A stretch of 37,984 nt of DNA, taken from positions 1 to 37,984 of the IMG/VR virus record IMGVR_UViG_3300020152_000254; one strand, given 5' to 3'. Position 1 is the first letter of the stretch. Every line of letters begins with the position of its first letter. The DNA comes from a virus. The position numbers were made by a program, and so were the translations under genes. The notes beneath the pieces are model-generated. The model ran no database searches. It was not told the origin of the DNA and was given only the letters and a program-made list of their open reading frames with translations. Below, piece after piece: positions 9,470 to 25,388 of the stretch.

Positions 9470-9477
9470 AAAGTATG
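9461..9477. repeat. Inverted repeat around the tape measure start codon
   Basis: Perfect 6-bp arms CATACT and AGTATG flank a 5-base loop. On the minus strand the loop contains the tape measure ATG. It could be a small mRNA hairpin or a protein-binding site. No Shine-Dalgarno sequence is seen before this start. Confidence 0.4.
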
Positions 9478-9501
9478 ACTTTTAAGATCAGAAAGGACAA
9501 T

Positions 9502-9519
9502 TTGGCAAACTTTAGCAAA
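9502..9519. promoter_or_regulatory. Conserved 18-bp intergenic motif, copy 1
   Basis: TTGGCAAACTTTAGCAAA. It differs in one base from the motif at 17121-17138. On the minus strand it reads as two TTTGC units 10 bases apart, so both would face the same side of the helix. It lies between the lipoprotein gene and its downstream neighbour, the tape measure gene relative to coordinates, in a 76-bp gap. A regulator-binding site is the simplest reading. Confidence 0.45.
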
Positions 9520-9545
9520 CAATTACAGTTAGTCTGGAAACAAAC

Positions 9546-10025
9546 TTACTTTTTATAGTATATGAAGGTTCCCTCAACACTATCCTTTTCAAAGATTATG
9601 TTAGCGATACTATGCGCATTTGCATAATCTTTTTCTTGTTGAGTGAATGTTTTTTTACCGTTATGAACGTCTATCTCAAGTAATGCTGCTTCTCTGTTGT
9701 CATATAAATAGAGATTGCAGGCTACCTTGCAATTGTTTTTCTCAATATCTCTTAATAGTTTCTCAATAAAAACCTCAGATGTATCTGATCCTTTATAAAC
9801 CAAGTATCTGGTTTCATACGTTTCATGATCTTTATGAAGAAGTTCCTCGTATAAGACAGCCTCTGAGGTAGGGGTAGGAGTGGGCTCTGGGGTTGAAATC
9901 GTTGGGCTAGGTGATGTTTGCATAGTACTTTCAGTTGCTGAGGAAGAAGTGGTTTTAGGAGTGCAAGCACTGAGCATCAGAGCTGATACTCCGATAACCA
10001 ACAACGTTGTTTTGTTTACTTGCAT
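9546..10025 (-). CDS. Phage-encoded lipoprotein of unknown function
   Basis: A 159-residue protein with a lipoprotein signal peptide: Lys5, a hydrophobic stretch (TLLVIGVSALML) and the lipobox LSAC with the acceptor Cys21. It is followed by a Ser/Thr/Pro linker (residues 24-54), then a globular domain of about 100 residues with two cysteines (NCKVAC) near residues 97-102. It would be anchored to the outer face of the cell membrane. It has its own good ribosome binding site (AAGGA, 4 bases). Its place between the tail chaperone and tape measure genes is unusual, as these are normally adjacent. Phage lipoproteins often block superinfection, so this is a possible role, inferred only from class and position. 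Confidence 0.75.
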   Translation of the reverse strand: MQVNKTTLLVIGVSALMLSACTPKTTSSSATESTMQTSPSPTISTPEPTPTPTSEAVLYEELLHKDHETYETRYLVYKGSDTSEVFIEKLLRDIEKNNCKVACNLYLYDNREAALLEIDVHNGKKTFTQQEKDYANAHSIANIIFEKDSVEGTFIYYKK

Positions 10026-10742: not shown

Positions 10743-11252
10743 TTACGCAGTCGAGTCACCAATAAGACCTAGGTAGTTACCATCGGACTTAGATTCGTCG
10801 AGCAATGCTTCAAATACCACTTCGATGACTTTTTCTTCATCAATTTTATGATTAAGAACAATCTCAGAAGCGACATATGCCTTGTGGAACACGATGTCGA
10901 AAGCTCTAGTACCTTCATTAATTGGGTGTAACACCAATTGTAGGGCATCAGTAGAAGCTCGTTGACCTGCACTAGCACCAAGAGTAATCCGGGCGTTAGC
11001 GGCTCCAGCAAAGGTAGCTTGGGGCATGGATCTTCGTAGGTTAGCGATTGTGTACTCAGCCAAAGGAACTTTAGCAGTGAGTTTCTCACCAATGAGATAT
11101 TTCTCAACAATCGTTTCACCAAATTTATCAACCATGACGTCTTTGTGTACGGGTTCGTAAGTAACCTCAACTCCCCCTTTGGTATGACCTAAGTCAGTTC
11201 CACCGAAGGTGACACTACAGACTCCCACTTTAACGTTAGAAATGTCTGCCAT
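10743..11252 (-). CDS. Major tail tube protein
   Basis: A 169-residue protein that would form the tail tube hexamers. The opening (ADISNVKVGVCSVTFGGTDLGHTKGGVEVTYEP) and the following VDKFGETIVEKYLIGE match the beta-sandwich tail tube proteins of siphoviruses. A helix and strands follow (LAEYTIANLRRSMPQA), ending in a long two-strand region (IDEEKVIEVVFEALLD). It has a strong ribosome binding site (GAAAGGA), as expected for an abundant protein. It sits between the tail terminator region and the tail chaperones, the usual order. Confidence 0.88.
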   Translation of the reverse strand: MADISNVKVGVCSVTFGGTDLGHTKGGVEVTYEPVHKDVMVDKFGETIVEKYLIGEKLTAKVPLAEYTIANLRRSMPQATFAGAANARITLGASAGQRASTDALQLVLHPINEGTRAFDIVFHKAYVASEIVLNHKIDEEKVIEVVFEALLDESKSDGNYLGLIGDSTA

Positions 11253-12226: not shown

Positions 12227-12531
12227 TTGATTAATTCCACTTTAATGTGATGAGCTGTTCCGTCAGCCCCATAGGCTACATTTTTCCCAAATACTTTATA
12301 GTTATTGCTTCCGTAATCCACTCGATCATCAACATTAATTGTGACCTCGGGAGCAAAATAGGCAATTGCAAGAACTGGTACAACTTGGCCGTTCCCAAGG
12401 AATTTTGATTTAGAAACTTCTTGTATTCTTACCTTGTATGTTCTAGTTGCTCCAAACGCTTCACGACCATACCGATCTAAACTGGATTTAGAATATAAAG
12501 TAACAGTCTGGTTCTGAAGTTGGCTTATCAT
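12214..12531 (-). CDS. Head closure (head-tail joining) protein
   Basis: A 105-residue beta-rich protein beginning MISQLQNQTVTLYSKSSLDRYGREAFG, which is the start pattern of head-closure/stopper proteins, and containing INVDDRVDYGSNNYKVFG. It would seal the head after packaging by binding under the adaptor ring. It overlaps the upstream adaptor gene by ATGA without its own ribosome binding site, so coupled translation is likely. Confidence 0.72.
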   Translation of the reverse strand: MISQLQNQTVTLYSKSSLDRYGREAFGATRTYKVRIQEVSKSKFLGNGQVVPVLAIAYFAPEVTINVDDRVDYGSNNYKVFGKNVAYGADGTAHHIKVELIKWQM

Positions 12532-13223
12532 ATGGTGTTTTCTAGATCAAATTGTCCAAATCTAACGACTAATCCTCTGAGTAAGTTTCTTGCCTTAGGT
12601 GCTATTAATTTATTACCAATTCCCTGATCACCACGACCCTCTTTAGTGTAGGAATAGTCACCCAAACTTTCTGATGTTTTGTCGCTAGAGTCTGTAGAGA
12701 AGAACTTTTCTCCCATTTCAATCTTATATTCAACTTGTGCGGCAGTTGCTCTCTTAACTGCCTCAGGAATACTCTTATAGTAAGTTGTAGGTGCTGTTCG
12801 ATTGTAGGAAGTCACATCTTTCTCTCGAGGAAACTTACCCAACTGAAAAATACGATAAAATGAAGTACTGTCTGGTGGGGTTGAAAATGTCTCTGTAGTT
12901 AGTACTCCTGCCTTAGTTGAAGCAGTAATTTTTTGTCTTTGACCCGCACCTGTCCCACCAATGATTTCAACGAAACAATAGGTGAAGTAATTGTCATCAT
13001 ACGCATTTTGGTGAACACTCTCTAGAGTAATAGATGTTGCTGATCCCGCAAAAGCTTTACCCTCTAATTTTCCGCAAAAAAATGGTTGGACAAAACCAAC
13101 ATAGGAATCGATTAACTCTTCCGCTTGAGAAATCTGATCATCGGCCTCTGTGGCATCTTCGATGGTGATGTTTGCGAACTCTACGAGTTCTGATTGTGCT
13201 AAATATTGACGACGTGATGACAT
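12528..13223 (-). CDS. Head-tail adaptor (connector) protein
   Basis: A 231-residue protein. The N-terminal helices (YLAQSELVEFANITIEDATEADDQISQAEELIDSYVGF) resemble gp6/gp15-type adaptors, which attach below the portal. A beta domain of about 80 residues is inserted (about 55-125, AFAGSATSITLESVHQN to STSFYRIFQLGKFPRE), and a final helical part follows (SIPEAVKRATAAQVEYKIE). The inserted beta domain makes it longer than simple adaptors of about 100-120 residues. It lies between the repeat protein and the head-closure gene. Confidence 0.68.
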   Translation of the reverse strand: MSSRRQYLAQSELVEFANITIEDATEADDQISQAEELIDSYVGFVQPFFCGKLEGKAFAGSATSITLESVHQNAYDDNYFTYCFVEIIGGTGAGQRQKITASTKAGVLTTETFSTPPDSTSFYRIFQLGKFPREKDVTSYNRTAPTTYYKSIPEAVKRATAAQVEYKIEMGEKFFSTDSSDKTSESLGDYSYTKEGRGDQGIGNKLIAPKARNLLRGLVVRFGQFDLENTI

Positions 13224-13227
13224 ATAG

Positions 13228-15693
13228 TTATTCTGTTGTGCTCCTTTTGTACCAGATTTGATTAGTTTTGATAGACCAAATAGGTGTATTTTTACTATAC
13301 CATGTTACAACCCTCTTGAGGTTCCAACGTCTTTTCAAAATGTATGCTTTGCCAGAGATAGTTTGGGTTTGGTAAGGTGACAAAACGGAAGCTTTACCCG
13401 TGATTGTTCTTTGAACAACAGCAGAAATTTTTGAGACACCAGTTATGATCTGGCTCTGAGACTTTTCAATTCGGGAAGTCCCCTGAATGGTTTGGGTAGG
13501 AGTGGTTTGAATTCTGGCTAAGCCCGTAATTAATTGACTGACAGCCTTTTGTAATCGAGAGACACCCACAATGTTCTGCGCTGTGGATTTTTCAACGCGT
13601 GATTTTCCTGTAATTGTTTGGGTTACTGATTTTTCAATACGGGCCTTACCCTGAATCGCTTGACTTGTACTTGCCGTGATTCGAGCTAAGCCCGTAATTA
13701 GCTGAGTGACGGCTTTCTCAATTCGAGCTAAGCCCGTCACGGTTTGTGCCACGCTCTTTTCAATTCTTGATTTGCCCGTAATTGTTTGGGTTACATCTTT
13801 GGCAATCCGGGCAACGCCCTGTACTGTTTGAGTAACTGACTTTTGAATCCGGGCAGTTCCTTGAATCGTTTGTGTGACAGCTTTGAGAATCGATGCTTTA
13901 CCAGTAACCGTGCGAAGAGTTGAAGCAGTGATGCGGGCCACACCTGTAATATCACGAGTAGCACCAGCTACGATCGAAGCAACACCATCAATAGTGCGAG
14001 AAACTGACTTTAAGATACTGGCTTTGCCTTGCATCGTTTGACTTGTACTTGCCGTGATTCGTGCTTTTCCCTGAATGACTTGAGAGGCTGACGCGGTGAT
14101 TCGCGCTACACCCTGGATTGTTTGCGTCACTGCTTTTTGAATACGACTTACACCTTGGACAATCTGTGTAACATTTTTTTCAATTCGAGCGACCCCTTGG
14201 ACATTCTGGGTGGTTGATTTAAGAATTGAAGCTTTACCTTGAATAGTTTGGAGGGTGGAAACTGTGATGCGGGCTATGCCCTGAATTGTCTGGGTTACTG
14301 CCTTCTGAACCCTCGCCTTGCCAGTGATGGTTTGTAAAGTATTATTGTTGATGTTTGCCACACCATTAATAGTTCTAGCAACCGAGGTAGTGATTCTGGC
14401 TAGACCGGCAATAGTCTGAGTTACTGCTTTTTGAATTCTCGCCTTACCTGTCACGGTTTGACTTACCGCTTTCTCTATCCTAGCTTTACCTGTAATTGTT
14501 TGAGGTGTTGTGACATCACCTCCGCCAGGAGCAATATATTGAATTACACTCATTAACTCACCCGAGTGGGCTGGTGTATTCACGTTGTCAATGAAAAAGT
14601 TTATTTCATCGTTTTCTGCAGGCGTAATTTCGTCGGTAGTGTCTTCACCCACGGTGTTGGTGCCACTTATGGAAGCTGACAGAGCAGTGCTTGATCCATT
14701 AACGCGAAAATAAACGTCGGTGCTCTTACTCGCACCTGGGGCCAGTAACAATTTAACGTACAAATCTTTGATTACGTATGCTGTTGGTCCTACGATACCC
14801 TTGACTTGACTTTCAGTGCCACCATCATTGGGAACACTTCCCATACCCGCATAGTGGTCGGTGCCAAAAGAGTGATCTGTAGAAGAGGAAATAAAACTTT
14901 CACCATCAGTGTCGGGCTGAAATTCAACACCCCATCTTACTTGACGAGCAGTTGGAGTGCCCGTAGGTGTTACCTTTATTGTGAAATAGTCTCCCCGAGC
15001 CACGTTGATGCTCAAACCAGTGACATTTCCAGATGTAGCAGCATCGGCAATTGTTACAATTGAAGAAGCCTCTTCCGAGTTGTTCTTCATAATAGAAATT
15101 GCATAGCTCTTTCCCGCCCCTGGAGATCCATTTAAATTGACATAGAAAGATTTAATAGTAGCCTCAATAGGGGCTACAGATCTTACAAGATAAGTCGTGG
15201 AGGCAGACTGCCAAATGTTTTGACGGGGAAAAAGAGCATTATATCTTGTGCCAGCCGCATCTACGTTTCCCCCTGATGCACCCATAACTATAAATCTTTG
15301 TGCGGTGTCAGATTCATACTCAACCGACCACGAGGAAGGGGTGGCTGTAGGGGTACCAGAAGCAGTAGTTCGAAGGTTGACACGATCGCCGGCACTGACA
15401 GAAATTTCGTCAGTGTCTAACCCCCTTGTGTCGGTTGCTCCAGAAATGGTTACCGCCAATGAAGAAGCAACGCCATTAACCATAACAGTGAATGTGTAGC
15501 TTTTAGCTGCGCCAGCAACTGCATCTATCTTTACTTTAAGATTTCTAAGTTTTCCAGTAGAAGGGATGATCTGTTCAAAGTCTGTAGCGGTTGCTGAATA
15601 ACCTGACTGAAGGTCGGGAAAAAATAGAGGGTTATAACGTGTGGCGTTATTTACAAGGTTATTCCCGTTTCTTCCAGTGGCTACTTGCTTCAT
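13228..15693 (-). CDS. Large repeat protein: three beta modules plus about 28 tandem 14-residue repeats
   Basis: An 821-residue protein, probably a virion fibre or decoration. Residues 1-390 contain three related beta modules of about 130 residues, each with an RYNxLF-type or equivalent start, a GAxKSYxxxVxxNG strand pair, and a last strand (WSVEYES, WGVEFQP, MSVIQYI). Residues 397-787 are 14-residue repeats of the pattern (T/S)QTI(T/Q)G(K/V/L)(A/S)RI(E/Q/T)(K/A)(A/S)(V/T). This regular alternation suggests a beta-solenoid or fibrous rod. The last 34 residues are basic and rich in Trp/Tyr (VVTWY, PIWSI, QIWYKR). The gene lies inside the head-connector region and overlaps the upstream gene by ATGA. 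The repeat units are rich in Ser/Thr. No family with known function was recognised; a head fibre or glycan-bearing protein is my inference. Confidence 0.8.
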   Translation of the reverse strand: MKQVATGRNGNNLVNNATRYNPLFFPDLQSGYSATATDFEQIIPSTGKLRNLKVKIDAVAGAAKSYTFTVMVNGVASSLAVTISGATDTRGLDTDEISVSAGDRVNLRTTASGTPTATPSSWSVEYESDTAQRFIVMGASGGNVDAAGTRYNALFPRQNIWQSASTTYLVRSVAPIEATIKSFYVNLNGSPGAGKSYAISIMKNNSEEASSIVTIADAATSGNVTGLSINVARGDYFTIKVTPTGTPTARQVRWGVEFQPDTDGESFISSSTDHSFGTDHYAGMGSVPNDGGTESQVKGIVGPTAYVIKDLYVKLLLAPGASKSTDVYFRVNGSSTALSASISGTNTVGEDTTDEITPAENDEINFFIDNVNTPAHSGELMSVIQYIAPGGGDVTTPQTITGKARIEKAVSQTVTGKARIQKAVTQTIAGLARITTSVARTINGVANINNNTLQTITGKARVQKAVTQTIQGIARITVSTLQTIQGKASILKSTTQNVQGVARIEKNVTQIVQGVSRIQKAVTQTIQGVARITASASQVIQGKARITASTSQTMQGKASILKSVSRTIDGVASIVAGATRDITGVARITASTLRTVTGKASILKAVTQTIQGTARIQKSVTQTVQGVARIAKDVTQTITGKSRIEKSVAQTVTGLARIEKAVTQLITGLARITASTSQAIQGKARIEKSVTQTITGKSRVEKSTAQNIVGVSRLQKAVSQLITGLARIQTTPTQTIQGTSRIEKSQSQIITGVSKISAVVQRTITGKASVLSPYQTQTISGKAYILKRRWNLKRVVTWYSKNTPIWSIKTNQIWYKRSTTE
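13333..14505 (-). repeat. Tandem 42-bp coding repeats (14-residue unit)
   Basis: About 28 consecutive 42-base units encode the 14-residue repeats, 27 of them without any length change; a single extra Gln codon precedes the last. The units are diverged at the DNA level, with synonymous changes, so this is an old protein-level repeat kept by selection for period. Confidence 0.9.
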
Positions 15694-16157
15694 GTACCGC
15701 CTAACGCAATAGTCCGTTGAACATTCTTACCATCTACGGTGGTTTGCCATCCAATGAAGTAATTATTAACGTAAAACCTTTGAGCCAATAAATCATCTTT
15801 TTGACCAGCTATCATCTTTACATCGCTTTCGATACGAGTTTCTCGAAAGTAAACAAGTCTTAATGGTTCGGTGGGTTCGAAGTTTTGATCTGCAATATTG
15901 ATTTTTATGCCGTGAACATCAAATTCGCCTGTATTCAAATTCACTTCAATATATTCTTTAAGCACAGGATTAAGTAAGTTAAATGCCATCAATTTTGATT
16001 TTTTTTCATACTCAAGTACATCAAAAAAAGCGGATCTTTTTTCTGGATCTATTGTTGAAACATCTTCCGGAGTTTGACTTATGACATGACCATCTTCAAA
16101 AAATGCTGTGAAAAGATATTTAAGTTTGAGTTTTTTATCACCGAATTGTGTTGCCAT
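15690..16157 (-). CDS. Hypothetical protein in the head module
   Basis: A 155-residue protein, mixed alpha/beta, with strands at both ends (KLKLKYLFTAFFEDGHVI and RFYVNNYFIGWQTTVDGKNVQRTIAL). No family is recognised. It is followed with ATGA overlap by the repeat protein gene, so the two are probably co-translated and may act together, for instance as an attachment subunit for the fibre. The ribosome binding site is weak. Confidence 0.65.
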   Translation of the reverse strand: MATQFGDKKLKLKYLFTAFFEDGHVISQTPEDVSTIDPEKRSAFFDVLEYEKKSKLMAFNLLNPVLKEYIEVNLNTGEFDVHGIKINIADQNFEPTEPLRLVYFRETRIESDVKMIAGQKDDLLAQRFYVNNYFIGWQTTVDGKNVQRTIALGGT

Positions 16158-16229
16158 TGTATTGGGCTTTCTCGCATTGCATTGCGATGTGTTTTTGACT
16201 AAACGCCTTTTGATAAGCCTTCAAGCATG

Positions 16230-16469
16230 TTATTCGGGTTGAGAAGCTTCCTCAGTAGCACCTCCAAATAAAGGTTTCTTTGCTCTTTGACCAACATTAG
16301 ACTCATTATGTTTGGCAACCAAAACATCAAATTCTGCTTCAGAAACGTTAGGGAATTTCAGTTGTCGGCCTGTTTCAGTGCAGGTAGCTACAATTTCGTT
16401 GTTATCGTCAACCTCAAGAGTGTGAGTGGTTTCTTTTTGGAGTTGAGCGTTAAAGATTAGTTTTTCCAT
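16230..16469 (-). CDS. Small hypothetical protein in the head module
   Basis: A 79-residue acidic protein. The sequence HTLEVDDNNEIVATCTETGRQLKFP suggests two beta strands, followed by a helix (VSEAEFDVLVAKHNESN) and a disordered end. No family is recognised. It has a clear ribosome binding site (AAGGA, 5 bases). It sits 7 bases after a structural gene. A 72-bp gap follows. Confidence 0.62.
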   Translation of the reverse strand: MEKLIFNAQLQKETTHTLEVDDNNEIVATCTETGRQLKFPNVSEAEFDVLVAKHNESNVGQRAKKPLFGGATEEASQPE

Positions 16470-16476
16470 ATATTCC

Positions 16477-17028
16477 TTAGTTTTCGTTGTATTGCAAAGT
16501 CATGGTGACGGTTGCTGTATCACCAGCTGCTGCACTACCCGATGTTTGCAATTGAGTAGTCAGATAGTTGGTGTACGCTGGGTTTGAAGTCGTTGAAGAG
16601 GCTTTGCCTGTAGCATAGGGACCAGTTGCGCCGAAAAATACTGCTACTCCCGACCCAATGGCAATTGCTGAGGTGGCATCGACGGTTAAGTTAGCGTTAG
16701 CTGAAGCAGAGGGAGTTGTATACAGTAAGCGGTCACCATCGCCAGTGCAAGCTGGAGTGCTCTTTAGAGTTAATCCTGTACCAAATGCCGTTGCGGTGTG
16801 AGCCCAAAGTCCCGCTGAGATTTGGTTGTAAGTACCAGAGAAATGACCAAAAAGCCAATTATCATAAGAGTTGTTACCTGCAGTGATCGGGGCAGCGGAG
16901 TACGCAGTTGCTTCTGTGTCGGAATTCTTCCAGTTTACGTCAGTAACACCAGCGCTAGTAGTGGTTCCACGAGTAGGTGAGCCAGTTTGTGTACCGTGAT
17001 CTCTGTCGAATGCGAATGTTGCTGCCAT
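16477..17028 (-). CDS. Putative structural protein (Ala/Thr/Ser/Gly-rich)
   Basis: A 183-residue protein, rich in Ala, Thr, Ser and Gly, beta-like, with a hydrophobic stretch AIAIGSGVAVFFGATG (about 120-138) and a final strand ATVTMTLQYNEN. This composition is typical of phage virion surface or fibre proteins, but no family is recognised. It is the first gene after the glycosyltransferase block, has its own ribosome binding site (AAAGG) and a 130-bp upstream region carrying the conserved 18-bp motif, so it may start a separate transcript of abundant structural proteins. Confidence 0.65.
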   Translation of the reverse strand: MAATFAFDRDHGTQTGSPTRGTTTSAGVTDVNWKNSDTEATAYSAAPITAGNNSYDNWLFGHFSGTYNQISAGLWAHTATAFGTGLTLKSTPACTGDGDRLLYTTPSASANANLTVDATSAIAIGSGVAVFFGATGPYATGKASSTTSNPAYTNYLTTQLQTSGSAAAGDTATVTMTLQYNEN

Positions 17029-17158: not shown

Positions 17159-18253
17159 TTAATAGATTTCTAACAAATTATCTAAAAATGACTTGATTTT
17201 CAGGGCGTCTGAATCAAAATTTACTTTCTCTTTAAAGTTACTAATCACATTTTCATTCATAGCTATGTACTGCTCAGGTTGACTATAATGGTCTAGCTTA
17301 GACCAAATCTGGTCTAAATTTAGACCGTCAACATCAATGCACGTTTTACCATCAATTAATAGTTCTTCACCTAGTTTGCCAGAGTAGTATGATTTTTTAA
17401 CAATAACAGGCCTGCCTATAGCAGCTGCATTGTATAAAACATGACCATACCCATCTCCACCTGCTTTAACGTGCCAAATGAACATCGCCTCTCTCATTTT
17501 GTTAGCCAGCTGCTCACTGCCATCCATCGATCCGTCTCTGCATTGACCCCCATAAGTTTTAAAATTCCAGTCTGGTCTACTTGCCTCTAAGGAGAGAAAG
17601 AGACTGTAGTCTGGCATGTCTTGATGTACGTTAATGAAACTGTAAGCTGTTTTTTCCTTGGGTATCTCATTAGTGCCCTCAAATTTATGTGGGTAAAAGG
17701 TTTTGAGGTCAAACTCTTGATGGTATTGAATAGTTCTTACGGGGTAATTGTGAACAACTTGAGCAGATGCCATTACTCCATTAATCATGTGAGCGAAGTG
17801 GGGTTCAATATTCCATTGATTTCCAATTTGATAAATAAGCTTTGGTTTGCTAGGATGTAGGTCACAAAGCTTACGAAATGGTTCAATGTGTTGAGGTAGT
17901 GAAGCAATCACAAAGTCAAATGGCATTGACATAAAGCCATCAAATGTGATCGCTTTATTGGTAAAACCACTATCAATATCTTTGCAATGGTACACATGAT
18001 CAGATGGGATCCTATTTGACCAGGCCTCTGAGCTTTCTACTTCGTTGAGAGGTTTAGTTCCATCTGGTGTCGCGCCGCCGATTGCCAAATACTGTTGTTG
18101 AGTAGCAGGGTGGTCGAATACTTTCCAAAATCCTTTTTCAGCCCACTCAATCCCTATTGGTCGATATAACTCACCACCAAATCTACCCTCAAAAACCATG
18201 ATCAGCGAGTGTAATAGGGATGCGTGATGAAAGTCGGCAAAAACTTTAAGCAT
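17159..18253 (-). CDS. GT-B type glycosyltransferase
   Basis: A 364-residue protein with the GT-B layout: an N-terminal domain (LIYQIGNQW, HNYPVRTIQYH near the domain link) and a C-terminal nucleotide-sugar domain with FIWHVKAGGDGYGHVLYNAAAIGRPVIVKKSYYSGKL near residues 262-298, where family 4-like enzymes have their EX7E loop. Here the acidic motif is replaced by GGDGYGHVLYNAAA. It would add a sugar to an unknown acceptor in the cytoplasm. It is the last gene of the glycan block and overlaps the preceding GT-A-like gene by 8 bases. Fold call is fair; donor and acceptor cannot be read. Confidence 0.68.
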   Translation of the reverse strand: MLKVFADFHHASLLHSLIMVFEGRFGGELYRPIGIEWAEKGFWKVFDHPATQQQYLAIGGATPDGTKPLNEVESSEAWSNRIPSDHVYHCKDIDSGFTNKAITFDGFMSMPFDFVIASLPQHIEPFRKLCDLHPSKPKLIYQIGNQWNIEPHFAHMINGVMASAQVVHNYPVRTIQYHQEFDLKTFYPHKFEGTNEIPKEKTAYSFINVHQDMPDYSLFLSLEASRPDWNFKTYGGQCRDGSMDGSEQLANKMREAMFIWHVKAGGDGYGHVLYNAAAIGRPVIVKKSYYSGKLGEELLIDGKTCIDVDGLNLDQIWSKLDHYSQPEQYIAMNENVISNFKEKVNFDSDALKIKSFLDNLLEIY

Positions 18254-18956
18254 TTGTTTCTTTCATACGGTGATAGTACAAAAAGAAGTCGCTGGGAAGC
18301 TCGATGCCAGCTTGAGCACAACTTCTTAGGTAACTTAAGAACATATCCGGCTGATAGGTAACTTTTTCGCCTTGCTGCATAAGAGTTAGGTTGTGACTCA
18401 AACCATTCATGTGATAATAGTGCTTCTTTCTCTCAAGGCCTAAGTCGTCAAGTAGCCCAACCTTAAATCCAAGGCGAGTAATGTCTTTTGTTATCAGACC
18501 AAAATGATCAAGTTTGTTGGGTACTATCCCGAAATCTAGACAGGTCTGATTTAAGCACTCTCTTCTAATTAACAAGAAACCAGGGTGCAATCTCTCTCCT
18601 TCTTTAAAACCAATAACATCGTATTTAGGCATTTCAATATTAAGATTGAAGAAAAACTGCTCTGGCTTATGGATAATAAAATCTTGTTCAATAAACAAAA
18701 CCCACTTGGATTGACTCTCTTTTAGAGATTCTTGAATTGCTTCATTTCTCCAATCACCACCCCTAGAGTTAGCTCGCAAGAAAGTAACATCATCTTTTTT
18801 CATTGTTTGCTTCACAAAGTCAACTCTATTAAAGATATTGTTTGCATCACTAAATGTGATGATTACTTCTCCAAATCGTTTTCTATTTTCTCTAATTAAC
18901 TTTCTGAAAATAGGATAATCGCAGTGGGTTGGCCAGGTGACGATGAGGTCAAACAT
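18246..18956 (-). CDS. GT-A type (family 2-like) glycosyltransferase
   Basis: A 236-residue protein resembling short GT-A enzymes. A first strand (FDLIVTWPTHCDY) and a segment NSRGGDWRNEAIQESLKESQ (residues 63-82) precede WVLFIEQDF (85-93), where GT-A enzymes have the metal-binding DxD motif; here it reads E90-Q-D92. A later HPGFLLIRRECL is like the acceptor-side segment. There is no membrane segment. It overlaps both neighbours by 8 bases. The EQD variant may still bind metal; loss of activity is also possible. Confidence 0.66.
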   Translation of the reverse strand: MFDLIVTWPTHCDYPIFRKLIRENRKRFGEVIITFSDANNIFNRVDFVKQTMKKDDVTFLRANSRGGDWRNEAIQESLKESQSKWVLFIEQDFIIHKPEQFFFNLNIEMPKYDVIGFKEGERLHPGFLLIRRECLNQTCLDFGIVPNKLDHFGLITKDITRLGFKVGLLDDLGLERKKHYYHMNGLSHNLTLMQQGEKVTYQPDMFLSYLRSCAQAGIELPSDFFLYYHRMKETNA

Positions 18957-20013
18957 ATTTATTAAGTAATTCCAAGTAAATCTTCATTCTTTGGAACATC
19001 CTCTCCTTATTTAGTCCTAAATATCTGACTGCTTTTTCTAGCGCATTTCCGTACTCAATTGAAAATACTTTGAGAATGTCTTTGGTTTCTTTGCTTAAAT
19101 AATCGTTTGAGTGAAAACCCGAATATGCAATAGAAAGCCAAACCAATCTTCTTTCCCACTCTTGCTTCTCCCCTACCGTATTTGCCTGGAGAGGGTAGTC
19201 CGATTTGGGTGCTTCAACCAATCTTCTACCCAGTGCCCTATTGGTATCATCAACCAAAGCTCCATTAAAACAACTTGAGAGAGAACCAATGTGAACCCAT
19301 GGGGCATAACCATCATAAATCCCCATTTTCTTTTCATAGTCTGGCATGTCGTCGGTATAACAGTGATATTGTGGGATTTCTTTTATTCGGCATTTCTTCG
19401 CACGAAGTTGTAGCGAAGTATTAACGAAGGTGTCGCCGTGTACATCGGTAGAAGTGGTCCAATCAAGCTCGGGAATATAGGTTCCAGCCTTCCATTGTTT
19501 ACTGTCAAAATTCCTGTCAGTATCTTTTAAAATTTGGGTTTTAGTGAAGAGAAAACAAGGCCAAAAATTGCACCCCTGATCACCATAACCAGAGTAGTCC
19601 AAGCCCCACACTTCTTTTGCCCGCTCTAAGATCTCTAACGCACAGCTGCCTCGCTTAGACCCCACTACTTCATAGCCTTGTTCTTCTATGTATTTAAAGC
19701 AGTAGTCAATGGTTCCAGGTTTAAATATTGGGGCATCTTCTTCAAGCAAAACCACTAAATCCGTTTTTACCTCATCCAACATAAGATCAATCGAATTTCC
19801 ATGAGTAACTGTTGAGGGTGTGTGTATAAACTTTGCCTTGGGGCTCAACAATACCATCTGCCGAACATACTCGACCACCTCTGCCTCAGCATACCCATTT
19901 AAATGAATAATCAACTCATCTACCTCGTTTTGCCACACCTTTAGGAACTGACCAAACCAGAAGGTTAATAAGAAGGGATCGCCAGAAGAAGGGAGTAGGG
20001 CAGTTCTAGACAT
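18949..20013 (-). CDS. GT-A-like glycosyltransferase
   Basis: A 354-residue protein with a GT-A-like N-terminal half: TFWFGQFLKVWQNEVDELIIHLNG, then GNSIDLMLDEVKTDLVVLLEEDAPIF, where E91-E-D93 takes the place of DxD. The second half holds an aromatic-rich region (WPCFLFTKTQIL; QYHCYTDDMPDY) and helices. I placed the start at the ATG at 20013, giving an 8-base overlap with the methyltransferase gene; the open frame extends 22 codons upstream, but that would run deep into the neighbour. It probably adds a sugar to the same glycan as the neighbours. Family assignment is from fold pattern only. Confidence 0.68.
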   Translation of the reverse strand: MSRTALLPSSGDPFLLTFWFGQFLKVWQNEVDELIIHLNGYAEAEVVEYVRQMVLLSPKAKFIHTPSTVTHGNSIDLMLDEVKTDLVVLLEEDAPIFKPGTIDYCFKYIEEQGYEVVGSKRGSCALEILERAKEVWGLDYSGYGDQGCNFWPCFLFTKTQILKDTDRNFDSKQWKAGTYIPELDWTTSTDVHGDTFVNTSLQLRAKKCRIKEIPQYHCYTDDMPDYEKKMGIYDGYAPWVHIGSLSSCFNGALVDDTNRALGRRLVEAPKSDYPLQANTVGEKQEWERRLVWLSIAYSGFHSNDYLSKETKDILKVFSIEYGNALEKAVRYLGLNKERMFQRMKIYLELLNKYV

Positions 20014-20755
20014 TACTGCTTTCAATAGATATGTTATTTCCACTATGGTAGTGACCAGGAACAGATGATTGGACAACACTTCGACTCCAGTTGTAATCTG
20101 CTTGACTAACTTTATAAAATCCCGTTAGACCTCGAGGAGTTGAAAAATGAATTGGTCGAGCTTTTCCATTTATTACCAGGTTGTGCATAAAGTCTGTAAC
20201 TAGACCATATGGCCAAGCAAAACCGTGCTCATCATTAGGAATTTGGTGCATGTGACGGTGCAAATCATGGATAAATAAGAACCCACCTTCATCAAGCGAA
20301 TCCCAAAACTTTCCCATCTCCGCAAATCGGGTTTGTGGCTCAGTGTCTAACAATATAAATTGAAACTTCTCTGTAGGCTGATAAGTTACCACATCTTGAA
20401 GCAGATTTTCAACATATTCCCCTAACCCCAACTGTTCGATTCGAGCCTTGGCCTTCTCGAAGATTGGTGGCAAAAACTCAATAGTAGTTAGCTTCCCTTT
20501 TTGATTGTGCTTGAGAGCCATACCCATATACATAGCTCCAATACCCCAGTGTGTTCCTGTCTCCAGTACGCGATTGGGTTTTAGCAGTCGAACCATCGAG
20601 TAAAAGAACTCTCCAACCTCCATCTCGACACCAGCGTCATTAAAAGCTAAAAACTCACTTTCTGTTCCTCCCCACTTTCCTTCATCAAATAAAGCCAGTT
20701 CTGGATCCATTTGCATAAGTTGGTAGGTTACTCCGGCAACAATTGGTTCTTTCAT
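20006..20755 (-). CDS. SAM-dependent methyltransferase (class I)
   Basis: A 249-residue Rossmann-type methyltransferase. Motif I is VLETGTHWGIGAMYMG (residues 63-78, ExGxxxG type), the acidic residue ending strand 2 is in TTIEFLP, and motif IV is FILLDTEPQTR; GGFLFIHDLHRH follows. The pattern resembles Methyltransf_24 proteins, often found in sugar or cell-surface modification clusters. The start was set at ATG 20755, which has a good GAAAGG site; the frame extends 9 codons farther. Set among six glycosyltransferases, it most likely O-methylates a sugar, although a protein or nucleotide target cannot be excluded. Confidence 0.8.
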   Translation of the reverse strand: MKEPIVAGVTYQLMQMDPELALFDEGKWGGTESEFLAFNDAGVEMEVGEFFYSMVRLLKPNRVLETGTHWGIGAMYMGMALKHNQKGKLTTIEFLPPIFEKAKARIEQLGLGEYVENLLQDVVTYQPTEKFQFILLDTEPQTRFAEMGKFWDSLDEGGFLFIHDLHRHMHQIPNDEHGFAWPYGLVTDFMHNLVINGKARPIHFSTPRGLTGFYKVSQADYNWSRSVVQSSVPGHYHSGNNISIESSNV

Positions 20756-20757
20756 GA

Positions 20758-21762
20758 TTAGCCTTTCAAAAAGCTCTCCCATTGGTTTTTAATAGTTTCT
20801 TTGCCAAATAATTCAATTGCGCGTTGTCGCCCCTGCTCGCCAATCTTAATTGCTGTCTCTTTGTGGTTGATTAAGTATTCGACCTGGCTCTTTAAGTAAC
20901 TGACGTCGTTGGAAACAAACCCGTGCACGCCGTTTTGTATAATGTCATGAACTTCATAAAAACTTAGTCCTCGATCAAGCTCTGCGTGTTTTTTCCCTAG
21001 AGCAACGACGGGAATTCCTGACATCATTGCTTCAATTAATGACAAAGTGTAGGGTGCAGGCCAGGTTCCGCCATATATAAAGGCCCTACTTTCTCTCATT
21101 AGGCGTTTCATTTCCTCATACGAAACCTGCCCCCCATTCATTGATCCCAAGTTCTCGTTTCCTGTTCCAAATATTTTTGCATCGAAACCACTCATGATCT
21201 GATTAATTTCTTGATAATGGCACTCCGATTGCCTTTGTAAAATTGATTGGGAAAAGTTAATTACTAGAGGATTTTCTCCTGTATAACCTCGAAACTCGCT
21301 CGGATCTTTATAAAAGCGAATAGTTGCGTTCAAGCCAGCAAAATCCGGTAACTCCTGTTCCATAGGTGAGTAACGTACTATCTGAAGACCTTCTTTTACC
21401 AACCTAGCCAGAATTCTCTCTTGATGTGCAACACATTGACCAATTGATCTAAAAATAACTCTTTTATGTCTCAGTTTTTCCCAATTTTTTTCCATTGCTT
21501 CGGGTAGATGCATGAAAATGATGGTGTCAGCCCATTCAATAAGCTCTGAGGGAATTGCATAGCCACTACTCACAATCGTACTCGCCAATCGTTCTAACTC
21601 AGGATAGTGAGTAAGTTCTGGTAAACCAGGGCGAATCATCCCCGGTCGGAAGTGGGGGTAAGCATAGGTTCCCGTTGAAAAAACGTCAAAACCCAGCTCA
21701 TGAAAAAGCTTAACTTCGTCGTATTCGAGCACTTGATGGCATGAAATGTATAAAATCTTCAT
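20758..21762 (-). CDS. GT-B glycosyltransferase (family 4/CgeB-like)
   Basis: A 334-residue GT-B enzyme. It starts with MKILYISCHQVLEYDEVKLFHELGFDVFS, the usual N-terminal Rossmann strand and helix, and its donor domain has AFIYGGTWPAPYTLSLIEAMMSGIPVVALG (228-255), with Glu244 in the place of the second Glu of EX7E, and FLKSQ-like helices at the end (LFGKETIKNQWESFL). The resemblance is to group 1 and CgeB-type transferases. It has an AGGAAA ribosome binding site. It is 2 bases from the upstream gene and 3 bases from the methyltransferase start. Substrate unknown. Confidence 0.8.
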   Translation of the reverse strand: MKILYISCHQVLEYDEVKLFHELGFDVFSTGTYAYPHFRPGMIRPGLPELTHYPELERLASTIVSSGYAIPSELIEWADTIIFMHLPEAMEKNWEKLRHKRVIFRSIGQCVAHQERILARLVKEGLQIVRYSPMEQELPDFAGLNATIRFYKDPSEFRGYTGENPLVINFSQSILQRQSECHYQEINQIMSGFDAKIFGTGNENLGSMNGGQVSYEEMKRLMRESRAFIYGGTWPAPYTLSLIEAMMSGIPVVALGKKHAELDRGLSFYEVHDIIQNGVHGFVSNDVSYLKSQVEYLINHKETAIKIGEQGRQRAIELFGKETIKNQWESFLKG

Positions 21763-21764
21763 AT

Positions 21765-22904
21765 TTAAATTTCCTCAAGTCTAGATTTCATTAATTCACC
21801 AACAGCGCTGAGACTAAATCTTTCTTTGACAAGCTTATTACCCCCTTCAGCGATTTTATTTCTGTATTCAGCATCACTGTAAATTTTTCTCATGGCTTCC
21901 CGTACATCTTTAATCAAAACTCCACTCCAATTCTGATCTGAGCGGTACCACTGTGAGTTTCTCGAGGAGTGAGTGATTCTTTCGGGAAAGGTAGGAAGTA
22001 TGTGTGCTGATTCCTCGTGTGTTAAGTAGTCTGCAATTCCTCCTGACTGCGTAGTGATAACCGGTTTTCCAAATAACATAGCTTCCATTTGAGGAACACC
22101 CCACCCTTCACCTCTGGTTGTGCTGATAAAGCAGTCACCAGAAGCATGAAATCGATGCACTTGATGCCGATCCATAAGGTCTGTATATAAATAAATAGGC
22201 GGTCGATAACTGAGGTTGAGGCTGGCAATAATAGCTTTTATTTCACTTTTAATTTCATCCTTTTTGTTAGAAGTGAAGTCATCTACATAGGTTTTGAGCA
22301 TGAGACATACATTGTCCTGCTCATTAAACTCTTGAAAATATGCTCTTAAAAGGGCATCGGGGTTTTTTCTAGTCGTCCACTCAAAAATAGAATAAAAAGC
22401 AAATTTTCCATTAATTACACTTTCCTGATATGGTTCAGGAGGAAAAACAGTAGTTTCAATAGCCTCAGGAATAATAAAGATTGGCTTATTTACCCCTGCA
22501 TTTACAATCGCTTTTTTATTTGTTTCGCTTCCAGTCCATATTTCATCAAGAACCTCACAACCTTGAGCAAAGTCGGGTGGCAATTTGTCGGTTTCCCAGA
22601 AGACCCTACCAATCATGTAACAACCCTCTTCTTTAAAACGAGGAAAAATGTTTGGAGTGAGATGAAGAATTTTGATTCTGTAATTCTCAGAAATATTTTG
22701 CAGGCGTTTGCAAAGCGAGCCCAATCGACCATAATCAGCAACCTCATGAGTAAAATGGACGTACTCCGTTTGAATAGCTATTCCAGCTTCATGCAACGCA
22801 CCAATGTCATGTCTAGTAGCTTCTCCGTATCCTGAGAAATCTAGAAAAGCACCAGTGTATTTAACACCAATTTTGCCAGTTTTTTGAGCTTTAGTATGAC
22901 TCAT
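21765..22904 (-). CDS. Glycosyltransferase family 4
   Basis: A 379-residue retaining GT-B enzyme. The donor site holds the EX7E motif RGEGWGVPQMEAM (Glu266, Glu274), followed by KPVITTQSGGIADYL; the N-terminal loop SGYGEATRHDIGAL (24-37) is the glycine-rich loop of family 4. Another mark is HLTPN and VFWETDKLP near residues 81-109. It would transfer an NDP-sugar to an unknown acceptor. TAATG overlap with the upstream zinc-ribbon gene. Close in type to the 406-residue enzyme (23173-24393), which suggests duplication or joint import. Confidence 0.9.
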   Translation of the reverse strand: MSHTKAQKTGKIGVKYTGAFLDFSGYGEATRHDIGALHEAGIAIQTEYVHFTHEVADYGRLGSLCKRLQNISENYRIKILHLTPNIFPRFKEEGCYMIGRVFWETDKLPPDFAQGCEVLDEIWTGSETNKKAIVNAGVNKPIFIIPEAIETTVFPPEPYQESVINGKFAFYSIFEWTTRKNPDALLRAYFQEFNEQDNVCLMLKTYVDDFTSNKKDEIKSEIKAIIASLNLSYRPPIYLYTDLMDRHQVHRFHASGDCFISTTRGEGWGVPQMEAMLFGKPVITTQSGGIADYLTHEESAHILPTFPERITHSSRNSQWYRSDQNWSGVLIKDVREAMRKIYSDAEYRNKIAEGGNKLVKERFSLSAVGELMKSRLEEI

Positions 22905-23176
22905 TATTTTAATTCAATAATATTTTCAGTCTTAAAATGACTCATTTTTGCACCACAACTCTTACACTTAACTTCACCTTTTAATGGATTGCCTTCGTAG
23001 TCAAAGCCCTGGATGGGCTCTCCAGATCTTGGCTTGGCATGCAAATAAAAAGCATGTCCCGAACAGCCTACGTGTATGTAGGCGAATCTTGGTCGTTGTT
23101 TAACTAACTTTTCTTGGACACTGTTCTCTTTAGCATTTTCAACAACTACAGCAGTGGTTTTCTCGATTGGTTTCAT
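22904..23176 (-). CDS. Small zinc-ribbon-like protein in the glycan block
   Basis: A 90-residue protein with possible metal ligands C38, H41 (GCSGH) and C71, C74 (CKSCG), and H80; the N-terminal 25 residues look disordered. A single zinc ribbon is likely, though the ligand set is only suggested. No family is recognised. It has a strong GGAGG ribosome binding site, overlaps the upstream GT by ATGA and the downstream GT by TAATG, so it is expressed together with the two family 4 transferases. It could be a regulator, an assembly factor or an acceptor protein. Confidence 0.65.
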   Translation of the reverse strand: MKPIEKTTAVVVENAKENSVQEKLVKQRPRFAYIHVGCSGHAFYLHAKPRSGEPIQGFDYEGNPLKGEVKCKSCGAKMSHFKTENIIELK

Positions 23177-24393
23177 ATTTCCTCCAATTTAATTTGATTA
23201 CTATTCGAGTCTTTGATCTTGTTTTTGACTAAGTTGTCAAAAATCAACTTGAGCTTAGTAGCCGTTTCCTCATAACTATATTTCTTGACGTACTCTGACG
23301 CTGCTTTCCCCTTTGCTCGACACTCCTCAAGGTGGCTAACTACATAACGCATTTTTGCTGCAAGGTCATCTTCATCGCAAATCACCATTTTTCCAACATC
23401 TCTGCCTTTGTAGCGACTATAGACAGCCGGGCACATTTCACGAACTTTGGCCTCGTACATATACTCAGGATTAAAGTACTCAGTTATGCCATGGGCATTT
23501 GGCACAATTGCACTGCATCCAGTAGCCATAGCTTCAAGAGGAGTTATTCCGAAACCCTCACCTCTACTCGGGAATACAAAACAGTCCGCTTTCTCACATA
23601 GTTTTGCCAACTCTTTATCGCTGACCTTACCTAACTGCACTTCTATATTCGGGTATTTGCTGGGTGGGAACGGAAGCGGGGCATGCTCCAACGTGGTTTT
23701 GAAGATCATTTTTACATTTTCGTCAGGTTGGAATTCTTTAATAAATGCTTTAGCCACTTCAGTAAAACCTTTTCTCAGATTGAATGCGTTGTAATGGAGA
23801 AATACAAATGGCTCATGCGTTTTCTCTTTGTCGTTTCTCTCTACGTAGTTGAAAGCTTTGGTGTTGTAGCCTAACGGAACCACCTCAGGATAAAATCCTC
23901 TTTTTCTGAAAACATTAGCACACCACTCAGAAGGAACAATTATTTTGTCAACATGGCGCAAATATTCATCCCAGTCTTCAGGAATCTTGTCACTCTCAAA
24001 CATTGTGAAAAGTACTTTAATTGGGTTCTCCAAACGCTTAACAGCATAGGGGCTGTGGTATAAAAAGCCTATTTTCTGGTGTTTAAACTCTTCGGAAATC
24101 TTCACACCCAACTTTTGCAACTCCGACTTGATGTGTTGACGACTCATTCCATAGCCATCAGCACTTTCATTGACACTACTAAAGTAAACTTCGTAGTCTG
24201 TGTTGCCGGGTGTTTGTTCTTCGGGGTGAGGGATAACGCCTGTGATTAGTTTATAGCGATATTCTTTTTCTTTTCGGTATTCTTCTTGTTCTTGAGGAGT
24301 AGGGATGGTGAATTGGTGGGTGGCGAGTAGCTGTTGAACTTCTTTCTCGCTATCAATCTCGACCAATCTACCACCTTGATTTTTTAAAATCAT
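23173..24393 (-). CDS. Glycosyltransferase family 4 with N-terminal extension
   Basis: A 406-residue enzyme. Residues 1-60 form a charged extension (QQLLATHQFTIPTPQEQEEYRKEKEYRYKL) that is not part of the GT fold; then comes the N-terminal GT-B domain (SSVNESADGYGMSRQHIK, 72-89) and the donor domain with SRGEGFGITPLEAMATG (Glu279, Glu287) and HGITEYFNPE. The extension contains an EIDSEKEVQQL helix and may bind another protein. It is the first gene of the block after the coat protein, separated by a strong hairpin, and has a modest ribosome binding site. Donor and acceptor are unknown. Confidence 0.9.
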   Translation of the reverse strand: MILKNQGGRLVEIDSEKEVQQLLATHQFTIPTPQEQEEYRKEKEYRYKLITGVIPHPEEQTPGNTDYEVYFSSVNESADGYGMSRQHIKSELQKLGVKISEEFKHQKIGFLYHSPYAVKRLENPIKVLFTMFESDKIPEDWDEYLRHVDKIIVPSEWCANVFRKRGFYPEVVPLGYNTKAFNYVERNDKEKTHEPFVFLHYNAFNLRKGFTEVAKAFIKEFQPDENVKMIFKTTLEHAPLPFPPSKYPNIEVQLGKVSDKELAKLCEKADCFVFPSRGEGFGITPLEAMATGCSAIVPNAHGITEYFNPEYMYEAKVREMCPAVYSRYKGRDVGKMVICDEDDLAAKMRYVVSHLEECRAKGKAASEYVKKYSYEETATKLKLIFDNLVKNKIKDSNSNQIKLEEI

Positions 24394-24470: not shown

Positions 24471-25388
24471 TTAGAAACTCTCTAATTCAACAACTCGGCG
24501 AGTGTCTAAGACAGCGACACCGAAGAGCAAGTCTAAAGTAACGATGTGAGCGCCAATTGAACCGTCATAGCGCATGTTCACACGGAGACTCAAACCTACA
24601 TCTTCAGAATTCACTACAGTTGACACTGTACCCAATCCAGGACCAACTTGAGGTAATGGGCGGGAAGCCAACACGAAAGCATCTCGAGTGTAAGCTAAGT
24701 TGTGTAATGAACCTGGAGAACCAGATCGTTTCACACTTTGAGACTCAAAGATGTCAAAACCATATAAGCGCATAACACGACCTTCGATGGTGTTTTGAGC
24801 TTGACCGATGGTTTGTTGCTGAGTGAAGTCTGCTTCCTCAAGTAACTCATTCATGACACTAGGGTCAACATAGAGATACTTGTTTTCTACTTTAGGTACT
24901 TTGTTGTCTACAAAACGTTTGCGGAGAGCTAACAGAGAAGCCTTTTTAGTAGCACTGGAAGTTGCATCAAAAGAGACGGTGTTGGTTAATGAAGAGTGCA
25001 ATGAAGCCAATTCATCCTCAACAGCCTCAGCTAAAGCAATAGCAGCGTCTTCGGCGTAACCATCTAAAGTATTTTGATTTTCTAACACTTTAGTCACGTC
25101 ATCGATGGCGATGGTAACTTCCTTATGCTTGTTCAAGGTAACGCTTACATTGGTAGCAGTTGGGTTTTGCTTTGTATATTCATTACCAGCGGTTTTATCA
25201 TTAGCACTCAAAGTACCACGCTTTGGAACTTGAATTACTTGACCGACTTGAGCAGTCACATAATCAGAACTACGAGCAACGGTTTTACCGAGGTTTAAGT
25301 ACGAAGAAAAACGTCCAAGAGCTTTGTTAGCAATCAGAGTTGGGATAAAAACTGCGTTAGTTGTGTTATTTAATACATTCTCAGGCAT
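24471..25388 (-). CDS. Major capsid protein (P22 gp5-like HK97 fold)
   Basis: A 305-residue coat protein. Its pattern agrees with the P22 coat-like branch: GQVIQVPKRGTLSAND, then TVTLNKHKEVTIAIDDVTKVL (85-105), a long helix (GYAEDAAIALAEAVEDELASL), NKYLYVDPSVMNELLEEADF, GRVMRLYGFDIFESQSV, and LGLSLRVNMRYD-like end strands (VGLSLRVNMRYDGSIG). It follows the scaffold gene and has a strong GGAGG site 4 bases before the ATG, as expected for the most abundant protein. It would form the icosahedral shell. No obvious processing site was noted. Confidence 0.88.
   Translation of the reverse strand: MPENVLNNTTNAVFIPTLIANKALGRFSSYLNLGKTVARSSDYVTAQVGQVIQVPKRGTLSANDKTAGNEYTKQNPTATNVSVTLNKHKEVTIAIDDVTKVLENQNTLDGYAEDAAIALAEAVEDELASLHSSLTNTVSFDATSSATKKASLLALRKRFVDNKVPKVENKYLYVDPSVMNELLEEADFTQQQTIGQAQNTIEGRVMRLYGFDIFESQSVKRSGSPGSLHNLAYTRDAFVLASRPLPQVGPGLGTVSTVVNSEDVGLSLRVNMRYDGSIGAHIVTLDLLFGVAVLDTRRVVELESF

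Follow-up and report, generated by a model that had tools for sequence, protein, structure and literature searches.

The DNA studied, hereafter the window, is a stretch of 37,984 nucleotides from a phage (IMGVR_UViG_3300020152_000254, positions 1–37,984). Eight co-directional open reading frames (ORFs) on its minus strand, almost all overlapping, occupy positions 17159–24393 between the major capsid gene and the head-tail genes. They encode six glycosyltransferases (four assigned to the GT-B and two to the GT-A fold), one O-methyltransferase-like protein and a zinc-ribbon protein. The original prediction had listed the same inventory, which is borne out by Pfam, by AlphaFold2 models searched with Foldseek and, for the zinc ribbon, by its CxxC pairs. 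The upstream gene encodes a P22-type major head protein with the HK97 fold (MCP, the proposed acceptor; 305 aa; 24471..25388, minus strand; PF11651, E = 1e-18; phrog_283). Downstream of the block are a Thr/Ser/Gly/Ala-rich protein of 183 aa, recognized by its sequence (16477..17028, minus strand), an 821-aa protein of tandem 14-residue repeats (TQTIxGxARI...; 13228..15693, minus strand), recognized by sequence and repeat spacing, the head-tail adaptor (12528-13223) and the major tail protein (10743..11252, minus strand; phrog_2175 and phrog_885). Thus, the block does lie inside the head genes, as had been proposed. The MCP gene and the first gene of the block, GTa, are 77 bases apart, and the successive gaps from GTa to GTf are −4, −1, +2, −25, −11, −8 and −8 bases, in agreement with the tight packing noted before. 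The listed start of GTd (GTG at 20079) runs over MT, and the ATG at 20013 is the likely start instead. Promoter and terminator scans gave signals no better than those in shuffled sequence.

Three of the proteins, GTa, GTb and GTc, exceed the Pfam cut-off for Glycos_transf_1 (PF00534). GTa (23173..24393, on the minus strand, as are all genes of the block; E = 1.7e-15; phrog_2170, E = 2e-35) and GTb (21765..22904; E = 1e-11; phrog_2170, E = 2e-24) are GT-B enzymes of the GT4 type. Both carry the intact EX7E motif claimed for them, at E279/E287 in GTa and E266/E274 in GTb, invariant in alignments of 37 and 35 sequences, respectively. GTa has an additional N-terminal domain of ∼60 residues. Between the two lies ZnR (90 aa; 22904..23176), a small zinc-ribbon-like ORF whose paired CxxC is found at the same position in most relatives covering the junction, and which has no confident match in Pfam or PHROG. 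GTc (20758..21762), a GT-B protein, has no EX7E at the expected site despite its above-threshold Glycos_transf_1 match; its profile matches TarM (E = 1e-9) and PglA. Relatives of GTc are encoded in 191 viral stretches, and none was detected among 50,697 phage records. Judged by sequence, GTc appears to be the core of a cassette widespread in viruses.

MT (20006..20782) resembles SAM-dependent O-methyltransferases: it exceeds the Pfam cut-off for Methyltransf_24 (PF13578, E = 9e-9) and its profile matches a family-3 O-methyltransferase (8c9v, E = 1e-12). GTd (18949..20013) is a probable GT-A enzyme with an E-x-D motif, of which D94 is invariant in 34 sequences; its match to Glycos_transf_2 (PF00535, E = 0.0023) is below the cut-off, and its PDB matches to GT-A proteins are weak. 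GTe (18246..18956) and GTf (17159..18253) have no Pfam glycosyltransferase match and were assigned by AlphaFold2 and Foldseek. The GTe model (pLDDT 94.7), with an EQD motif in which E90 and D92 are invariant, matches RmlT (8bz7, E = 3.5e-8), which places it in the GT-A fold. The GTf model (pLDDT 90.8) has MshA as its best PDB match (3c4q, E = 1.2e-10), which places it in the GT-B fold, and GTf has no match in Pfam, PHROG or annotated phages. Since the fold matches of GTf include MshA, PimA, peptide O-GlcNAc transferases and T4 alpha-glucosyltransferase (1y6f) alike, the fold search cannot tell the acceptor. None of the block proteins contains a hydrophobic segment suggestive of a membrane protein.

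Relatives of the locus were gathered from IMG/VR and are metagenomic contigs, often incomplete. A scan with the MCP alone yielded 40 loci, of which two are truncated too soon to be informative and one, L093, is without the block; GTa directly follows the capsid gene in the other 37 (37 of 38 informative loci). The two genes adjoin even at 34–42% MCP identity. All 16 contigs that extend 9.5 kb or more downstream from the MCP gene, a few of them retrieved via GTf rather than the MCP, have the order GTa-GTb-GTc-MT-GTd-GTe-GTf. Because the gene order and the capsid linkage are still found at MCP identities as low as 34%, we rejected the possibility that the block is a stray moron, present by chance or as recent cargo. 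Co-inheritance with the head genes is also seen in pairwise distances: GTa, GTb, GTd and GTe correlate with the portal at r = 0.61–0.72, and the MCP itself at r = 0.53. MT and GTf follow the head genes poorly (MT-MCP, 0.02; GTf-MCP, 0.20). These conserved features, together with the absence of export genes described below, are stronger evidence than the original prediction had.

The cassette likewise begins just after the capsid gene in two contigs with other major head protein families (L057 and L136). Linkage to head genes is not universal, since relatives of the cassette core (GTc, GTf, and GTa or GTb) are located among the replication genes of other phages (L052 and L055). Such a location would suit a target outside the virion, such as a small molecule, a host protein inactivated during infection, or nucleotide-sugar pools. 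We regard this as very unlikely for the window, given the late position beside the MCP gene and the co-inheritance with head genes; an eight-gene pathway would also be costly for inactivating one target.

The flippase and lipid-linked initiator families (PF01943 and PF02397) were found in none of 16 block-bearing phage records, and neither PF00483 nor, as a sign of an ABC exporter, above-threshold PF00005 in any of 12. The block proteins thus lack the membrane-like segment, and the records searched lack the flippase and lipid-linked glycosyltransferase families, expected of gtr-like serotype conversion. In a broader form, conversion of the host surface would mean that a host surface polymer is extended or methylated in infected or lysogenic cells, for instance to keep other phages out. 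A tyrosine recombinase is encoded at the start of the contig, so the phage may be temperate; GTc has PglA- and TarM-like matches; and GTc, GTf and MT relatives are located beside an ABC exporter in an Omnitrophota chromosome. The same families accompany an ABC exporter at a bacterial locus (G057), so a surface glycan may have been what the pathway originally made. We nevertheless consider host-surface conversion improbable, because, in addition to the lack of a membrane protein in the block and of these export families in the records searched, the block is placed in the late head operon and its seven enzymes keep one order even among phages that have diverged widely, which is not how exchangeable conversion genes behave. 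A metagenome-assembled contig (G004:C13) was considered as a pointer to Omnitrophota as the host. This remains unproven: every part of the contig is phage and no host gene was recognized in it, so only binning ties it to that phylum.

Glycosyltransferases of other phages take part in DNA hypermodification (Pyle 2024, cited in PMC12619734), and those of the block could in principle act on a modified base in the phage's own DNA; the fold matches of GTf include T4 alpha-glucosyltransferase, along with many other GT-B enzymes. However, a base hydroxymethylase of the thymidylate synthase type (PF00303) was found in 0 of 16 block-bearing records, and linkage to a capsid gene would have no obvious reason. 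A Tet/JBP search (PF12851) of block-bearing records, which was run without a working positive control, also gave no match. DNA glycosylation is therefore extremely unlikely here, and the earlier statement that no modified-base synthesis gene or flippase is present agrees with the block-bearing records searched.

Among the candidate acceptors, the MCP is the most likely. All 47 block-bearing MCPs, down to 34% identity, end in V-E-x-E-S-x, in which E301, E303 and S304 are invariant while the last residue varies; S224, in an invariant G-S-P loop, is also conserved throughout. The MCP of the block-less L093, 55% identical to that of the window, has lost E301, S304 and S224. A search with the L093 capsid protein for further block-less relatives found only L093 itself, so that the contrast comes from one relative. 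These comparisons suggest that the MCP is probably the acceptor, with Ser304 (C-terminal V-E-x-E-S-x-COOH) or Ser224 as candidate sites, and that it fits this role better than the repeat protein.

Alternatively, the virion could be glycosylated on the major tail protein, a scaffold, or the fibre, repeat or decoration proteins after the block. Ser/Thr-rich repeat, collagen-like or fibre proteins are often encoded downstream of the block, the C-terminus of the major tail protein is also near-invariant (...NYLGxIGDS), and glycans on both capsid and tail tube are reported for mycobacteriophages (PMC12619734). On the other hand, in five genomes (L025, L026, L035, L068 and L073) the block is complete, within the limits of the contigs, and GTf is followed by the head-tail adaptor with nothing encoded in between. 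The 821-aa repeat protein, which the original prediction had named as a candidate acceptor, is thus rejected as a general acceptor and is not a constant partner of the block. The major tail protein, whose C-terminus is partly retained in the block-less L093, is a secondary candidate by its sequence. The 183-aa protein is possibly a decoration protein and alternative acceptor; it shares 91% amino acid identity with its counterpart in L007, where the DNA is 75% identical, and is absent from most other block-bearing genomes, so it is not a constant partner. Overall, an acceptor in the virion other than the MCP appears unlikely.

Of the original prediction, virion glycosylation thus stands as the best reading: several enzymes form a pathway linked to the head module, and nothing points to base modification or membrane export. 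Capsid linkage, constant order, distance correlation and the absence of export and base-modification genes from the records searched favour a cytosolic pathway, and we consider a soluble assembly line for a virion glycan, with the MCP as its most likely acceptor, to be the probable function of the block. The block would be expressed late, together with the head proteins; the six glycosyltransferases would work in the cytosol, drawing on nucleotide sugars of the host to assemble a short oligosaccharide on a structural protein, and MT would O-methylate one of the sugars in this chain. Because the enzyme set stays with the coat gene in nearly all relatives, the particle is probably coated with a methylated sugar chain. 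With the MCP as acceptor, probably at the C-terminal Ser304 or Ser224, each head would carry hundreds of copies. We infer the acceptor and its residue from conservation; any choice of the chain-starting enzyme, the sugars and the purpose, perhaps shielding or binding, would likewise be conjectural.

A more specific proposal is offered tentatively for these uncultivated tailed phages: the capsid gene and the glycan genes may be inherited as one module, and the eight soluble proteins of the block may add sugars and methyl groups to every capsid subunit at its C-terminal, sequon-like E-x-E-S-x. The GTc and GTf families may represent a viral glycan cassette that is widespread but had no match among the isolated phage records searched. 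To our knowledge, only a few actinobacteriophages have so far been shown to glycosylate their capsids. If the proposal is correct, a whole environmental phage lineage carries such a pathway as a core part of its head module, a concrete acceptor motif is available, and a compact soluble oligosaccharide-on-protein pathway could be used in engineering. It would also provide a role for two large enzyme families, GTc and GTf, which have many metagenomic viral relatives and none in isolated phages at the sensitivity used.

Virion glycosylation is reported for the mycobacteriophages Che8, Corndog and Myrna (Freeman 2023, as described in PMC12619734, PMC11256854 and PMC12363180); according to PMC12619734, the glycans are attached C-terminally to capsid and tail-tube subunits. 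As here, the glycosyltransferases of those phages are phage-encoded, and they are reported to place glycans on capsid and tail-tube proteins. The invariant C-terminal serine of the MCP is reminiscent of these reported sites. The Che8 enzymes gp108-110 compare with seven enzymes in the block, and are located at the right genome end, far from the head genes, whereas the block directly follows the capsid gene. This, with the cassettes among replication genes elsewhere, weakens the earlier argument that co-transcription with head genes points to the target. Che8 gp108-110 are not homologous to the block enzymes at the sequence level (six compared; no hmmsearch match at E = 10; best hhalign probability, 17.8%). 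In Rhodococcus phage Peregrin, a glycosyltransferase and a methyltransferase are proposed, as a proposal only, to glycosylate virions; there is one enzyme of each, in separate genes (60 and 49), and the account in PMC13313380, as far as consulted, describes no conserved operon with the capsid gene. Moraphages, a metagenomic group of large phages, have several glycosyltransferases in their core genome, with no capsid-gene link or conserved order reported in the parts of PMC12619734 consulted. The profiles of GTc, GTd, GTe and GTf do not match gp18 or gp19 of Streptomyces phage Faust, which has only two GT4 enzymes, beside ribonucleotide reductase. These two proteins are sequence relatives of GTa and GTb, both of which match PHROG 2170.

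The gene order on the minus strand of this 37,984-base virus record is terminase, portal, minor head protein, scaffold, P22-type major capsid protein (MCP, 24471–25388) and then the glycosyltransferase block (17159–24393), whose first gene follows the MCP gene after 77 bases. The block encodes, in order, GTa, ZnR, GTb, GTc, MT, GTd, GTe and GTf, where GTa to GTf are glycosyltransferases, ZnR is a small zinc-ribbon-like protein and MT is O-methyltransferase-like; its junctions overlap or nearly so, with one exception. Variable Thr/Ser-rich proteins lie 3' of it, followed by the head-tail adaptor and tail genes. ORF, Pfam and PHROG data confirm eight genes between the MCP and head-tail genes. 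Recent import is not indicated: the G+C content is 0.401 both in the block and in the remainder of the window. A tyrosine recombinase gene at 1–1032, open at the contig end, indicates that the phage may be temperate; the contig is probably incomplete on its left side.

GTa, GTb and GTc score above the Pfam cut-off for Glycos_transf_1, and MT for Methyltransf_24; the MT profile also matched family-3 O-methyltransferases. The EX7E motif, originally described as intact in the two family 4 enzymes (GTa and GTb), is kept by both in every aligned relative and is absent from GTc. GTd gives a weak GT2 match and has an acidic motif with an invariant Asp. GTe and GTf lack any Pfam glycosyltransferase match; of their AlphaFold2 models, that of GTe (pLDDT 94.7) matches GT-A and that of GTf (pLDDT 90.8) GT-B glycosyltransferases. 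Pfam matches and model folds thus bear out the predicted six glycosyltransferases in two folds (four GT-B, two GT-A).

Two IMG/VR scans using MCP-only queries identified 40 relatives of this capsid family. GTa is the next gene after the MCP in 37 of them; of the other three contigs, two are too short to show it and L093 is block-less. Every one of the 16 contigs that extend 9.5 kb or more beyond the MCP, a few of which were found with GTf, has the order GTa-GTb-GTc-MT-GTd-GTe-GTf. Most relatives covering the GTa–GTb junction have ZnR there. Tailoring genes within the block of relatives encode a second GTd, a second methyltransferase, an HAD-like protein and HNH nucleases. The HNH genes occur at differing junctions, in or beside the block (L005, L007, L039, L063, L067, L068), like homing endonucleases. 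A deep relative with an MCP 42% identical, L154, has a smaller set consisting of GTa-GTb-GTc, a Cpn10 (GroES-like) co-chaperonin gene (L154:10188–10484), another methyltransferase and GTf. GTa, GTb, GTc and GTf therefore look like an older core, and GTd and GTe like extensions; in a different phage group, L055 and L052 differ by the same core-to-extension step. For GTa, GTb, GTd and GTe, the correlation of pairwise distances with those of the portal (r 0.61–0.72) is as strong as for the MCP (r 0.53); for MT and GTf it is poor.

The N-terminal domain of GTa (∼60 residues, 24208–24393; motif NPxGRxVxV...LLxxGF) matches no Pfam or PHROG family. In eight other contigs carrying the wider GTc/GTf-containing gene set, or cassette (L056, L118, L123, L151, L152, L173, L177, L187), it recurs as a stand-alone protein of 68–90 residues encoded immediately 5' of GTb, with no convincing match in other positions among the ORFs screened. 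Five of the eight matches have E-values of 0.015 to 0.3; since most are weak individually, the recurrence rests on the constant position. Within the pathway, it may act in targeting or assembly.

As originally noted, genes for modified-base synthesis, a flippase or a membrane acceptor protein are missing. Neither a thymidylate-synthase-type hydroxylase, nor a Polysacc_synt flippase, nor a Bac_transf initiator was found in the 16 block-bearing phage records, no ABC ATPase scored above cut-off in 12 such records, and none of the block proteins is membrane-protein-like. The absence of these base-modification, export and membrane functions fits a cytosolic protein acceptor. The sugars would be supplied by the host, since NTP_transferase was also absent (0/12).

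The favoured reading from sequence comparison is that the block glycosylates a virion protein, as predicted, with the acceptor moved from the repeat protein to the MCP. Repeat or fibre proteins were rejected as a general acceptor, as in five block-bearing genomes the adaptor gene is the next one after GTf. The MCP is the constant partner of the block. Of the 305 MCP columns, 48 show no or almost no variation among 47 block-bearing sequences; E301, E303 and S304 at the C-terminus are among these, although the final residue is variable. The MCP of block-less L093 is 55% identical to that of the window (several block-bearing MCPs are only 34–42% identical) and has lost E301, S304 and S224. This loss is suggestive of the MCP as acceptor, but is no proof, because L093 is a single lineage in which ten invariant columns changed.

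Among the proteins encoded 3' of the block, the repeat protein (13228–15693; 821 aa) contains tandem 14-residue repeats (TQTIxGxARI...) and has a shorter relative in L027. In L028 and L033, collagen-like G-x-T repeat fibre proteins follow the block, with an extra GT-B-like gene near each (L028:11134–13347 and 15149–16273; L033:4107–5981 and 8595–9821). A 183-aa protein (16477–17028; L007:19077–19628) is 91% identical between the two phages at the protein level and 75% at the DNA level, with other proteins ∼50% identical, indicating strong purifying selection; it is probably a virion protein.

Mycobacteriophages are described as carrying glycans at capsid and tail-tube C-termini (Freeman 2023, cited in PMC12619734; PMC12363180). 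The Che8 system would work alike if the virion-glycosylation reading is right. However, the block is not a homologous member of it, since the three Che8 glycosyltransferases have no detectable homology to the block enzymes and are encoded far from the Che8 head genes. Virion glycosylation has been proposed for a Rhodococcus phage that encodes a single glycosyltransferase and a single methyltransferase (PMC13313380).

No GTc, GTd or GTf relatives were found among 50,697 annotated phage records, and the isolate phages Aleemily, KeAlii and R5C, distant capsid relatives, have no glycosyltransferase between the capsid and adaptor/tail genes. GTc and GTf relatives co-occur in many other viral contigs, where the cassette directly follows unrelated major head proteins (L057, L136), is near the terminase (L151, L177), lies between DNA polymerase III and a RecA-like gene (L052, L055) or belongs to a larger phage with nucleotide-sugar genes (L058). 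At an Omnitrophota chromosomal locus (L105:12945–18886; G057:C17), tandem relatives of GTf (three), GTc (two) and MT (two) lie next to an ABC exporter, suggesting that the families descend from, or were exchanged with, a bacterial surface-glycan system.
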